A stretch of 45,472 nt of DNA from a bacterium (GTDB lineage Bacteria > Bacteroidota > Ignavibacteria > Kapaibacteriales > Kapaibacteriaceae), in contig JANJTN010000041.1 in NCBI GenBank assembly GCA_024711065.1, positions 1 to 45,472 on the forward strand. The letters are read 5' to 3'. This document shows positions 181 through 43,872 of this stretch, in pieces; positions within the stretch are counted from its first letter, which is position 1, and the number at the start of each line of letters is the position of its first letter. A program made the translations under genes and the position numbers. The notes under the pieces were generated by a model. That model saw only the letters and a program-made list of their open reading frames with translations. It ran no database searches and was not told where the DNA came from.

Positions 181-300
181 TAGCGGCTAGCGTCTAGCGC
201 TTAGCGTCTAGCCGCCAGACATTCAACACTAAACGCTAGACGCTAGACGCTCGACGCAAAACGCTCGACGCAAAACGCTCGACGCTAAACGCTAAAGGCT
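181..300. repeat. Heptamer repeat array in two opposed blocks (TAGCGTC-type, then AGACGCT/AAACGCT-type)
   Basis: Units read directly: TAGCGGC TAGCGTC TAGCGCT TAGCGTC TAGCCGC, 15-nt spacer, AAACGCT AGACGCT AGACGCT CGACGCA AAACGCT CGACGCA AAACGCT CGACGCT AAACGCT AAAGGCT. Confidence 0.9.
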
Positions 301-511
301 ACTCTCTGCTCTTCCTCGTGTTCACTCCAAAGGCGGCCCAGATCGGGCACCAGTTGATCATGGCCGTACCGGCGAAGATCACTGCCAGAGCGCCGGCACC
401 CCAGAACAGGGCCGATCCCTGCTCGATCACACCAAAGAACATCAGCGCTGCCAGGCCAAGGGCCAACAGATAGCGAACGATCTTGTCTGCACTCCCAACA
501 TTTGCCTTCAT
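299..511 (-). CDS. DUF2892 / YgaP-like small inner-membrane protein (70 aa)
   Basis: MKANVGSADKIVRYLLALGLAALMFFGVIEQGSALFWGAGALAVIFAGTAMINWCPIWAAFGVNTRKSRE. GGAGG Shine-Dalgarno upstream of ATG at 511; the 141-aa ORF start in the track is probably too long. Confidence 0.8.
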   Translation of the reverse strand: MKANVGSADKIVRYLLALGLAALMFFGVIEQGSALFWGAGALAVIFAGTAMINWCPIWAAFGVNTRKSRE

Positions 512-9500: not shown

Positions 9501-9596
9501 ACCATTCCTTCGGCAAACGACCGGGACTGCTCCCGGAATCAGTGACTCCCGGAATAGTCCGGGACTGCTCCCGGAATCAGTGACTCCCGGAATGGT
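9501..9596. repeat. Two 35-bp direct repeats, each with hairpin arms, bounded by ACCATTCC/GGAATGGT
   Basis: CCGGGACTGCTCCCGGAATCAGTGACTCCCGGAAT at 9521-9555 and 9559-9593; internal CCGGGA-N4-TCCCGG palindromes; outer inverted pair ACCATTCC (9501-9508) and GGAATGGT (9589-9596). Confidence 0.9.
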
Positions 9597-38647: not shown

Positions 38648-39912
38648 GCGCGGCGCCGGCCTCAGCCCCCTTCATGACCCCAAGGATCTGGTTGACCGTG
38701 CTGGTCTGCGGTCTGGGGTACTTTGTGGACATCTACGATCTGATCCTGTTCTCTATCGTGCGGCTGGATTCGCTGCGCGGCATTGGCGTCCCCGAGGCCA
38801 GCCTGATGGCTGCCAGCGAGCAGGTACTGCAATGGCAGATGATCGGCATGCTGCTGGGCGGTATCCTGTTCGGCGTGCTGGCCGACAAGCGTGGGCGTTT
38901 GTCCGTGCTTCTGGGTTCCATTCTGCTGTACTCCCTGATGAACATCGCCAACGCTTTTGTGAGCAGCGTGCCGATGTATGCTCTGTTCCGGTTCCTGGGT
39001 GGCATTGGCCTGGCCGGAGAGCTGGGCGTGGCCATTACCCTGGTGGCCGAGATCATGCCCCGCCATAGCCGCGGCTACGGAACCACGATCGTAGCGTCGA
39101 TGGGTATTCTGGGAGCCGTGGCCGCCTACTTTGTCCATGAATGGTTCGATTGGCGAACGGCATTCGTGGCAGGGGGCTTGATGGGACTGGCACTGTTGGC
39201 ACTGCGCGTGCGCGTACACGAGTCCGGCATGTTCCAGCGGATGGACAGTCACCCTGTGGCGCGCGGCAACCTGCTGATGATGCTCAAGCCGCACCGCCTG
39301 ATGATCTATGTGGCCTGCATTGCCATCGGCGTACCCATCTGGTACGTGGTGGGCATCCTGGTGACGTTCTCTCCGGAACTCACGGCGGCCTCGGGCTCGT
39401 CGGCTACCGTTGTGGCCGGACAAGCCGTGATGTGGTGCTATGTGGGCCTCTCGGCCGGTGATCTGGTGAGCGGTCTGATCAGCCAATGGCTGAAGAGCCG
39501 TAAACGGACGGTCGGCCTGTTCCTTGCGCTGCTCAGCGGCATCATTGCCTGGTATCTCCTAACGCCGGAGCGTTCGGCGGAGCTTACGTACTGGCAGTGC
39601 GCCCTAATGGGATTTGGATCCGGCTATTGGGCCGTGTTCGTGACCACAGCGGCGGAGCAGTTCGGGACGAATCTTCGTGCCACTGTTGCCACCACAGTTC
39701 CGAATTTTGTGCGTGGAGCCTTGGCACCGGCACTGCTGATCTTTGGCGCACTGCGCACAGGCACCCTTCCGGGTGCGGAAACCATGTTTGCGGGCCAGCC
39801 ACTGATCGGCAGCGCGATCATCGTTGGTATCGGCACCATGACCCTGGCATTCCTCGGATGGTACCTGCTGCACGAGACCTTTGGCAAGGATCTGGAGTAC
39901 GTGGAGATGTAA
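38644..39912 (+). CDS. MFS transporter (sugar/metabolite:H+ symporter-like)
   Basis: ATGA overlap; 12-TM-like; FVDIYDLILFSIVRL...GMLLGGILFGVLADKRGRLSVL...FLGGIGLAGELGVAITLVAEIMPRHSRG. Confidence 0.92.
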   Translation: MSAAPASAPFMTPRIWLTVLVCGLGYFVDIYDLILFSIVRLDSLRGIGVPEASLMAASEQVLQWQMIGMLLGGILFGVLADKRGRLSVLLGSILLYSLMNIANAFVSSVPMYALFRFLGGIGLAGELGVAITLVAEIMPRHSRGYGTTIVASMGILGAVAAYFVHEWFDWRTAFVAGGLMGLALLALRVRVHESGMFQRMDSHPVARGNLLMMLKPHRLMIYVACIAIGVPIWYVVGILVTFSPELTAASGSSATVVAGQAVMWCYVGLSAGDLVSGLISQWLKSRKRTVGLFLALLSGIIAWYLLTPERSAELTYWQCALMGFGSGYWAVFVTTAAEQFGTNLRATVATTVPNFVRGALAPALLIFGALRTGTLPGAETMFAGQPLIGSAIIVGIGTMTLAFLGWYLLHETFGKDLEYVEM

Positions 39913-40072
39913 ATGCACTGATGCACTAATGCACTAATGCACTGATGCACTAATGCACTAATGCACTAATGCACTGATGCACTGATGCACTGATGCACTG
40001 ATGCACTAATGCTCGAATGCACTGATGCACCAATGCTCGAATGCACTGATACACTGATGCACTCATGTTCGA
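39913..40072 (+). repeat. Octamer tandem array, unit ATGCACTR, 20 units
   Basis: Starts at the base after the MFS stop; e.g. ATGCACTG ATGCACTA ATGCACTA...; 3' units diverge to ATGCTCGA, ATGTTCGA. Confidence 0.97.
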
Positions 40073-40113
40073 ATAAGCGAACGTTCGTTTTCTCACATCT
40101 TCTGGATAGTGCT

Positions 40114-40776
40114 ATGAAACAGGCTTTGATCGTGTTGGCGGTACTCGTAGCCGTGGCTGCTCCGGCTGAAGCTCAGATGAAGCAGATCTATCTTGGACCG
40201 TCGCTGCTGTTCAAGGGTGGAACCAATGCCGGGAACATCCAGGAGGGGGCCAAGACCGGGTTCAACTTCCATGCGATCCCGGATCTTGGCGTAACCTTCA
40301 AGTTCATGTTCAGCAAGAGCTCCGGTGCCGGGGCGATCCTGGACCTTGAGTACGCTACCTACTCCTTCCGTATGCGGCCGGAATCTGAGTCGGCAGCTAC
40401 CGACGAGAACACCTTCATCTTCAAACCAAGCTACTTCTCCATCGCTCCGAGCCTGTATCTGAGTGGCGTGACCATCGGTGCTGCCTTCGGTTTTCCGATG
40501 GCGTATAACGTAAGCAACGTGGCTGGCACGGACCTGTCGTCCATCGCCGGAACCACGGACAACCTTTCCTCGCCATCCATCGAGCTGCGTCTCGGCGGAA
40601 TGATCACCGTGCTGGAGTCTGACCTTGGCCAGCTGAATGTTCTGATCCGCGGTGGCTACATGGTTACGGGTCTGTATAACAAGGACTACTTTGATGGCGG
40701 CTCCGACGAATTCAACCCCAAGATGGTCTCCGGAGGTCTTGGCCTGAATTATCTCTTCGATCTTGGAGCGTTGTAA
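40114..40776 (+). CDS. Outer-membrane beta-barrel protein (PorT-like)
   Basis: Signal MKQALIVLAVLVAVAAPAEAQ; repeated amphipathic strands; start corrected from the 40009 ORF, which began in the repeat. Confidence 0.75.
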   Translation: MKQALIVLAVLVAVAAPAEAQMKQIYLGPSLLFKGGTNAGNIQEGAKTGFNFHAIPDLGVTFKFMFSKSSGAGAILDLEYATYSFRMRPESESAATDENTFIFKPSYFSIAPSLYLSGVTIGAAFGFPMAYNVSNVAGTDLSSIAGTTDNLSSPSIELRLGGMITVLESDLGQLNVLIRGGYMVTGLYNKDYFDGGSDEFNPKMVSGGLGLNYLFDLGAL

Positions 40777-40947
40777 ATGCACTCATGCACTGATGCACTA
40801 ATGCACTAATGCACTGATGCACTAATGCATCAATGTTCAATCGCTCAATTGTTCAAACGTTCAAATGCTCAAGCGTTCAAACGTTCAAATGCTCAAGCGT
40901 TCAAGCGCTTGATAACCCCTCGCCCCTAACCCGTAACCCCTCGCTCA
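40777..40947 (+). repeat. Compound array: 17 octamers (ATGCACTR then NYGYTCAA) followed by 5 heptamers (TAACCCC/TCGCCCC)
   Basis: Octamer phase holds exactly 40777-40912 while the word changes; then TAACCCC TCGCCCC TAACCCG TAACCCC TCGCTCA (40913-40947). Confidence 0.93.
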
Positions 40948-40959
40948 TCGTCCTTTCCC

Positions 40960-42501
40960 ATGCAGCACAACGAACGCATCGTCATTCTTGATTTTGGATC
41001 GCAGTACACGCAGCTGATCGCCCGCAAAGTGCGCGAAGCGGGAGTGTACGCCGAGATCCATCCCTTTTCGATCAGCGAAGACACCCTCAAGGGTCTTGCG
41101 CCGAAGGGGATCATCCTGTCGGGCGGACCCAGCAGCGTGTACGCCGAGGGAGCGCCGCATCCGTCGTTCAATGTGTTCGGGCTCGGCGTGCCAGTGCTCG
41201 GGATCTGCTATGGACTGCAGCTGATCGCCTATCAGCTGGGTGGAGCGGTAGACAAGGCCGCCAGACGGGAGTTTGGTCGCGCAACCCTGCAGATCGACGA
41301 CGACACGGATCTCTTCAAGGGCGTGGGACCCACCACACAGGTCTGGATGAGCCACGGCGACCATCTGACGGCAACACCGCCGGGCTTTGAGCGAGTAGGT
41401 CACACGGAGAACGCCGAGATCTGCGCCATCCGCAACCCTGACATGCGGATCTGGGGTGTGCAGTTCCACCCGGAAGTACACCACACGTCGCAGGGAACCA
41501 CGCTACTCAAGAATTTCGTGGTGGATATCTGTGGATGTTCCGCCGACTGGAACGCGGCCCACTTCATCGATGCCGCGATCGACGAGATCCGAAGAGTGGT
41601 TGGCGATGGTGGCGTGATCTGTGCCCTGAGCGGTGGTGTGGACTCTACCGTAGCAGCGGTGTTGTTGCACAAGGCCATCGGCGATCGGGTGCATTGCATT
41701 CACGTGGACAGCGGTCTTATGCGCCAAGGAGAATCCGAGCAGATCGTACGACTCTTCAAAGAGCACTTCGACATGTCGGTGGACCTCGTGAACGGCGAGG
41801 AGATCTTCATGGGCCGTCTCGACGGCGTTACCGACCCAGAGAAGAAGCGCAAGATCATCGGCAACGCCTTCATCGAACTCTTCGAGGTGGAAGCCAAGAA
41901 GTTCAGCGATGCGCAGTTCCTCGCACAAGGCACGCTGTATCCCGATGTGATCGAATCCGTGAGCATCAAAGGTCCGTCGGTCACCATCAAGACCCATCAC
42001 AATGTAGGGGGCTTGCCAGACCGCATGAACCTGAAGCTCATCGAGCCCTTCCGAGAGCTCTTCAAGGACGAGGTGCGTGCTGTTGGTCGAGAGCTCGGTG
42101 TGCCGGATTGGTTCGTCAAGCGCCATCCCTTCCCGGGACCCGGTCTGGCGATCAGGATCCCTGGAGAGGTCACCAAGGAGAAAGCCGACATTCTTCGTGC
42201 AGCCGATGAGATCTATCTCGACGAGATCCGGAAGGCCGGACTGTACGACGAGATCTGGCAGGCCTTCGCCGTTCTGCTGCCGGTTCAGACCGTTGGCGTG
42301 ATGGGCGATGAACGCACGTATGAGTTTGTGTGCGGCTTACGAGCCGTAACGAGTGTGGACGGCATGACGGCCGACTGGTATCACATGCCGTATGATGTGC
42401 TGGCTCGCATGAGCAATCGCATCATCAATGAAGTACGCGGTATCAACCGCGTGGTATACGACATCTCTTCCAAGCCCCCTGCAACCATTGAATGGGAGTG
42501 A
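40960..42501 (+). CDS. guaA: GMP synthase (glutamine-hydrolysing)
   Basis: [31 protein letters not shown]...GICYGLQ...GVQFHPEV...[21 protein letters not shown]. Confidence 0.98.
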
Positions 42502-43034
42502 TCATGTTCGACCAACTCCAACTGCACCTGTGGTTCAACCACATTCCGATCATCGGAACCGCGATCGGTGTTCTGATCGTACTGGGTGGACTTCTCTTGA
42601 AGAGTGATGTGATCCGCAAGACCGGTCTGGTGATCTACGTGGTCACCGGCCTTGCTGTTTTCCCGGCCAACTTCACCGGCGAGGGCGCCGAGGATATCGT
42701 CGAAGACAAGGTCAGCTGGGTTAACGACAACCAGGTCCACGAGCACGAGGAGCTGGCCGAAACGGCCATGACGCTGACCGTGATCGGACTGGTTCTGGCA
42801 TTGCTGGTGTTGTTCCAGTTTCCACGACAGGCTTCTCTGCAGCGCCTGATCACGGCTGCGTATCTGATGGTGGGCCTTGCCGGGTGCGTGGTCATCGGTC
42901 TTGCCGGTCACGAAGGTGGCAAGATCATGCGTCCGCATCTTGGAGCAGCGAGTACCGAGCAGCGAGCAGCGAGTCCAGGGACAGAGAACCCGGGAACAGC
43001 CGGCCCAGAGCAGAACGAAGCCGACAACGACTAG
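42492..43034 (+). CDS. DUF2231-like membrane protein
   Basis: [26 protein letters not shown], four hydrophobic helices; low-complexity C-terminal tail. True start may be ATG at 42504. Confidence 0.7.
42943..42977 (+). repeat. Coding heptamer array (GAGCAGC/GAGTACC)
   Basis: GAGCAGC GAGTACC GAGCAGC GAGCAGC GAGTCCA at the DUF2231 gene 3' end. Confidence 0.85.
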
Positions 43035-43832: not shown

Positions 43833-43872
43833 CTCAAGCCCTCAAGCCCTAAGCTATCAAGCCCTTGAATCG
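43833..43872 (+). repeat. Short octamer array CTCAAGCC-type between DJ-1 and metG
   Basis: CTCAAGCC CTCAAGCC CTAAGCTA TCAAGCCC TTGAATCG, starting at the base after the stop codon TGA. Confidence 0.7.

Follow-up and report, generated by a model that had tools for sequence, protein, structure and literature searches.

A compound octamer-heptamer array 3′ of a stop codon in a Kapaibacteriaceae genome, probably part of a recent burst of long-unit simple sequence repeats

The short tandemly repeated repetitive (STRR) sequences of cyanobacteria are heptanucleotide repeats, of which several heptamer words can occur per genome. Long simple sequence repeats (LSSRs), as recounted in PMC4679880 from Mrazek et al. 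2007, have units of 5-11 nt with a peak at heptamers and are scattered over species. Heptamers are further mentioned for Calothrix (PMC4692102). Here we describe an array of comparable build on a contig of 45,472 nt (JANJTN010000041.1, assembly GCA_024711065.1; the whole stretch is referred to as the window) from a bacterium of the family Kapaibacteriaceae, for which nothing relevant on tandem repeats in Kapabacteria was found in the literature. The array occupies positions 40777-40947 between a gene for a small protein and guaA, and probably (we put the probability at roughly 0.7) it arose in a burst of simple sequence repeats with long units of 6-8 bp, a burst that is recent and confined to this species and in which the repeats have grown by slippage and mutation.

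Structure of the array and its counterparts in the genome

The array and the genes on both sides of it are made up as follows.

40114..40776, plus strand (reading frame open from 40009): upstream gene, small protein, no Pfam match
40777-40947, plus strand: compound array, 17 octamers and then 5 heptamers without gaps, by base-by-base cut
40777..40824, plus strand: six octamers of the species-specific word ATGCACTV, which begin right after the TAA that ends the upstream gene
40825..40912, plus strand: octamers that keep the register while the words shift (ATGCATCA, ATGTTCAA ... GCGTTCAA, GCGCTTGA)
40913..40947, plus strand: five heptamers of the TAACCCC/TCGCCCC type, words that form longer arrays elsewhere in the genome
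40960..42501, plus strand: guaA (GMP synthase), downstream gene, PF00117 and PF00958

An earlier note on this DNA had listed 17 octamers and five heptamers from the base after the stop, and we could reproduce every listed word. Autocorrelation confirmed the 8-bp periodicity, with a lag-8 identity of 0.76 across the 136-bp octamer part compared to a maximum of 0.42 at any lag from 2 to 29 in 2000 shuffles. The 7-bp tail by itself gave a weaker signal (lag-7 identity 0.64, shuffle 99th percentile 0.625); its words build long arrays at L111:1-93, L143:2360-2515 and L148:1361-1466. Within 40825..40912 a 24-bp higher-order unit, ACGTTCAA-ATGCTCAA-GCGTTCAA, is present twice, and the intermediate word ATGCTCAA differs from ATGCACTA by two substitutions.

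The species is represented by one assembly, which comprises 2.56 Mb in 216 contigs and in which the window is contig 200. Arrays were called with Tandem Repeats Finder in 61 stretches (646 kb of the 2.56 Mb), namely the window, 14 contigs chosen for ATGCACT arrays and 46 contigs (430 kb) chosen regardless of content. A genome-wide search had been proposed in the earlier note, and this survey did reveal an excess of 6-, 7- and 8-bp arrays: 121 arrays in total, with period 7 in 50, period 8 in 37, period 6 in 15 and period 14 in 13 cases. They share a few common words, namely ATGCACTV, AYGTTCAA, TCAAGCCC, AATCTGCT, TAGCGTY, TAACCCC/TCGCCCC, CCCCATT, AACAGC(C), GAGCAGC and TGACCTACCGTCTC. Three consecutive ATGCACTN units gave 260 matches in the whole genome at up to two mismatches, whereas the reversed control gave no match. 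In the full sample an unexpectedly large share of contig ends touches an array (15/112 versus ~5%), which indicates that arrays disturbed the assembly and that array lengths may be wrong.

Further arrays were identified in the window itself.

39912..40067, plus strand: sister array of ATGCACTV (19.5 copies), in which ATGCTCGA variants keep the register, 3′ of the stop of a gene for a major facilitator superfamily (MFS) transporter
40065..40094, plus strand: hairpin resembling a terminator, followed by a T-rich tail, where the sister array ends; from a consensus scan only
225..301, minus strand: TAGCGTY (7/14-bp) array 3′ of a minus-strand gene that ends in TAG
42943..42973, plus strand: GAGCAGC (7-bp) array within the coding 3′ end of gene 42492-43034
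43833..43865, plus strand: short array of the 8-bp word TCAAGCCC, located between two genes whose spacing in the nearest relative is 1 bp

The sister array is the longer one and lies 860 bp upstream of the array at 40777-40947, and part of the TAGCGTY array recurs in inverted orientation at 176-212. The sister, TAGCGTY and TCAAGCCC arrays go unmentioned in the earlier note. Between genes at 9521-9593 there are two copies of a hairpin-rich 38-bp unit (CCGGGACTGCTCCCGGAATCAGTGACTCCCGGAATAGT), which resembles the AATCCCGGATTACT hairpin repeats at L120:17882-18274. Regarding the neighbouring genes, the product of the upstream gene at 40114..40776 would, judged by sequence character, be of an outer-membrane type, and guaA is closest, among named genomes, to those of an Ignavibacteria bacterium and a Bacteroidetes bacterium (71%).

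Recency and probable origin of the arrays

We looked for three perfect ATGCACTV units in 59 relatives, including five same-genus genomes, and found no match. Across ~350 kb of four same-genus genomes there were two arrays in all (~0-1 per 100 kb), and at the guaA locus, compared in 30 genomes, 8-bp intergenic arrays occurred only in the genome of the window, with the exception of a marginal call of score 40 in L193. The nearest relative is G003, with 86% identity in guaA and a median identity of 68% between reciprocal best hits. Ten conserved gene pairs that bear arrays here have a median spacing of 139 bp versus 42 bp in G003; specifically, the upstream gene and guaA are separated by 183 bp versus 6 bp, and the pair flanking the array at 43833 by 32 bp versus 1 bp. 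The wider spacing implies that arrays were either gained after the split from G003 or lost in G003, and gain is the simpler option because other relatives are also without arrays. A pre-existing genus-wide ATGCACT motif was considered and rejected, as the motif is about as frequent in G003 as expected (46 versus 44). A dense and recent burst of 6-8 bp arrays, sister species that are poor in arrays, array-free orthologous sites that fix the insertion points and several common words thus come together in one species, and a comparison of its strains could test the preference for 7-8 bp units, the spread of words between loci and the settling 3′ of stops.

Other genera of the family (G006 and G008) do have some arrays, which are built of other words, hinting at repeated lineage-specific bursts. 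The words observed at L223 (G006) and L226 (G008) include ATTCGTA, AATGTGAA and, at two loci, AGTGACG; both AGTGACG arrays end 7-8 bp from the stop of the minus-strand gene to their right.

The earlier note had further claimed that the period is kept while the word changes, and that such turnover in phase is more than slippage would produce. The former holds in part. All 180 steps between successive ATGCACT units were multiples of 8, and AYGTTCAA follows ATGCACTV in the same register in four of four loci (window, L116, L122 and L123), across 16-64 bp of degenerate units, the shared register being the rotation that gives the best word match. By eye, 7-bp word transitions of a like kind are found in L113, L128, L137 and L148. 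However, the period is not fixed, as it shifts from 8 to 7 in the window, L115, L120 and L124, and from 8 to 6/7 in L123 (L123:3383). The latter claim could not be upheld: substitutions leave the unit length unchanged, and in-register word change is therefore not beyond slippage. We simulated this in a toy model in which whole units are duplicated or lost and single bases are substituted. Depending on the chosen substitution rate, as many as 34% of the arrays with 12 or more units had a consensus altered at three or more of the eight positions and still a lag-8 identity of at least 0.7.

With regard to position, 43 arrays lie between codirectional genes, and 26 of these start at most 12 nt from the stop, compared to 9.8 (95% range 6-14) for random placement in the same gaps. 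There are 25 ATGCACT arrays, and 20 of the 24 with a called upstream gene follow a stop on the same strand, the remainder being mostly inverted partners. Relative to the end of that stop codon, these 20 start anywhere between 17 nt upstream and 11 nt downstream. In 14 of them the stop of the host gene is in register with the TAA or TGA of the unit (p ~4e-9 versus random phase), and in four TAGCGTY arrays the gene stop is likewise in register with the TAG of the unit. This match is partly automatic, because once an array has grown over the native stop, the frame can be closed only by a stop within the array. The two ATGCACTV arrays of the window sit one base off this register (TAA, then ATGCACT).

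Taken as slippage and mutation, the burst would have proceeded as follows. Arrays would grow by replication slippage of whole units; a point mutation would alter a word and renewed slippage would spread the new word, by which the register is kept during turnover. New loci and mixed arrays most likely arose when a few units were copied from an existing array, possibly through template switching or inter-array recombination; such copying would also yield inverted pairs. The location after stops would mostly be a residue of selection, since arrays do the least harm there when a genome is compact, and a unit that contains a stop codon and whose length is not a multiple of three would close any reading frame within three copies. 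The eighth letter of ATGCACTN arrays in the 646-kb sample was G in 87, A in 66, C in 50 and T in one case; this near-absence of T is explained neither by slippage nor by the stop-codon idea.

Several observations weigh against this origin. The same words recur at many unlinked loci and ATGCACTV shows a strand bias (20/24 behind a same-strand stop), neither of which is predicted by plain slippage; common words at unlinked loci and orientation 3′ of stops are not explained by slippage alone. The sharing of eighth-letter patterns between loci is modestly above shuffles (suggestive at 4 units, weak at 5-6) but confounded by a 16-bp internal pattern, and it is by inference that we arrive at copying between loci.

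Alternative explanations

A strand-aware process might instead have seeded fixed-length units at stops and copied words between arrays in register, after the split from the nearest known relative. An example would be template switching that is linked to transcription or to the restart of replication. We regard such a process as unlikely; if it were true, one species would have gained a common array vocabulary after that split.

It also appears quite unlikely that the arrays are functional 3′-end elements, which would fold in the mRNA into strings of hairpins or long hairpins and thereby terminate transcription or stabilise the transcript of the preceding gene, and insulate the gene that follows. 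The location after stops in sense orientation would agree with such a role, as would the terminator-like hairpin that closes the sister array, the folding of the array RNA (-39.3 versus -26.7 kcal/mol for shuffles, z -3.7), and the fact that the 8-mers can be read as a 4-bp palindrome plus a 4-nt loop (TGCA-CUNA, ACGU-UCAA). Exact inverted repeat arms of at least 12 nt were detected in 15/63 array-bearing and 15/142 array-free intergenic regions (6/160 in G003), a comparison that is only indicative because array-bearing regions are longer. However, palindromic units fold well without selection, the words are heterogeneous and several of them (TAACCCC, AACAGC) have no stem. Orthologous genes within the genus do without arrays, arrays also lie between divergent genes and within genes, and the array had no match in Rfam.

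Called genes contain 29 arrays, most often of the 6-bp word AACAGC; arrays in coding sequence preserve the frame and are located in variable linkers, for example in dnaE2. A gene for a dnaE2-type error-prone DNA polymerase (L124:3558-6764, contig 172) contains five short 7/8-bp arrays of the common words, which form extra in-frame linker sequence in comparison with two relatives. In a HIT/rhodanese fusion (L112:3010-4146) the linker, rich in Q/N/S/T, consists of ~30 copies of the 7-bp unit GGCTGTT (202 bp). In-frame arrays inside genes favour a mutational process that is tolerated where the harm is small over a regulatory element.

A termination-reinitiation ladder is very unlikely. ATGCACT[A/G] could be read as a mini-ORF of start, His and stop, with the stop of one unit overlapping the ATG of the following unit (TGATG/TAATG), such that ribosomes would hop to the next gene. 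This would agree with the host stop being in register with the unit TAA/TGA in 14/20 arrays, itself partly automatic in an array overrunning a native stop, and with an eighth letter that is A, G or C and hardly ever T. Yet C at about a quarter of the eighth letters breaks the ladder, arrays also lie between convergent gene pairs, and the other words lack the start-stop feature.

That the arrays are an artefact of a fragmented draft assembly is highly improbable in spite of the contig ends that touch them, since arrays are found inside contigs and between correctly ordered orthologous genes, those inside genes keep the reading frame, their words are common to many loci, and the draft assemblies of relatives are without them. 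A templated adding enzyme (reverse-transcriptase or telomerase-like) that writes fixed-length units from a changing template is barely credible: constant unit length with changing words and the telomere-like TAACCCC words would suit it, but unit lengths vary (6-8 and 14) and the reverse-transcriptase domain PF00078 (RVT_1) had no match in the genome of the window.

Further candidate causes of the burst were tried and rejected. End-joining insertions find no support, as Ku was absent from this genome and from 11 relatives. Mismatch repair does not appear to be lost, since MutL is present and so is MutS, although split over two contig ends with the break between model residues 177 and 185 (C17:1-62, C144:1-27); an array inside mutS at this break is possible, since contig ends often touch arrays. 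MutS is in any case not expected to act on loops of 7-8 nt. A convincing SbcD was found neither in the genus nor in most of the family, so that a loss of SbcCD cannot explain the burst, but may be permissive for inverted arrays. A phage source was rejected as well, the two viral contigs with four ATGCACTV units having them in unrelated repeat contexts. Repetitive extragenic palindromic (REP) elements with a RAYT transposase stand apart from these rejected candidates: Y1_Tnp proteins had two matches in the genome and are equally present in array-poor relatives, and the units are tandem and not REP palindromes.

Comparison with known repeat systems

The lag-8 identity of the array and the 121 arrays of the survey correspond to head-to-tail units of 5-11 nt in runs longer than chance, as described for LSSRs. 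In the account of LSSRs given in PMC4679880 (after Mrazek et al. 2007), the class of unit length, the prominence of heptamers and the scattered species agree with our data, as does the preference for units of a multiple of three in coding regions, 6-bp words being those found most often within genes here. Compared to that account, octamers are here nearly as common as heptamers, and a small list of common words and mixed arrays set the genome apart. The GGGNATC heptamers of Xanthomonas and Nostoc (Rehm et al. 2015, PMC4692102) likewise abut stop codons and are not tied to mobile elements. They are built, however, of one G-rich, quadruplex-forming word, whereas ATGCACTV and AYGTTCAA have no G-runs and are not G-rich units capable of forming a G-quadruplex; CCCCATT and TAACCCC could, from their sequence, form quadruplexes on the opposite strand.

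TAACTGA heptamers of Beggiatoaceae, cyanobacteria and Bacteroidetes (MacGregor 2015, PMC4679880) share with our arrays a patchy distribution between species, contigs that often end at them, absence from orthologous intergenic sites of some close relatives and, in some genomes, mixture with other heptamers. They differ in their word and, in Beggiatoaceae, in lying mostly just upstream of starts, whereas the arrays described here lie mostly 3′ of stops.

Several heptamer words per genome are common to STRR sequences and to this genome; the words differ, and we set the two apart by description only. The arrays are classed with the known LSSRs and post-stop heptamers, and are distinguished from them by their octamers, by the size of the common vocabulary and by the stop codon within the unit.
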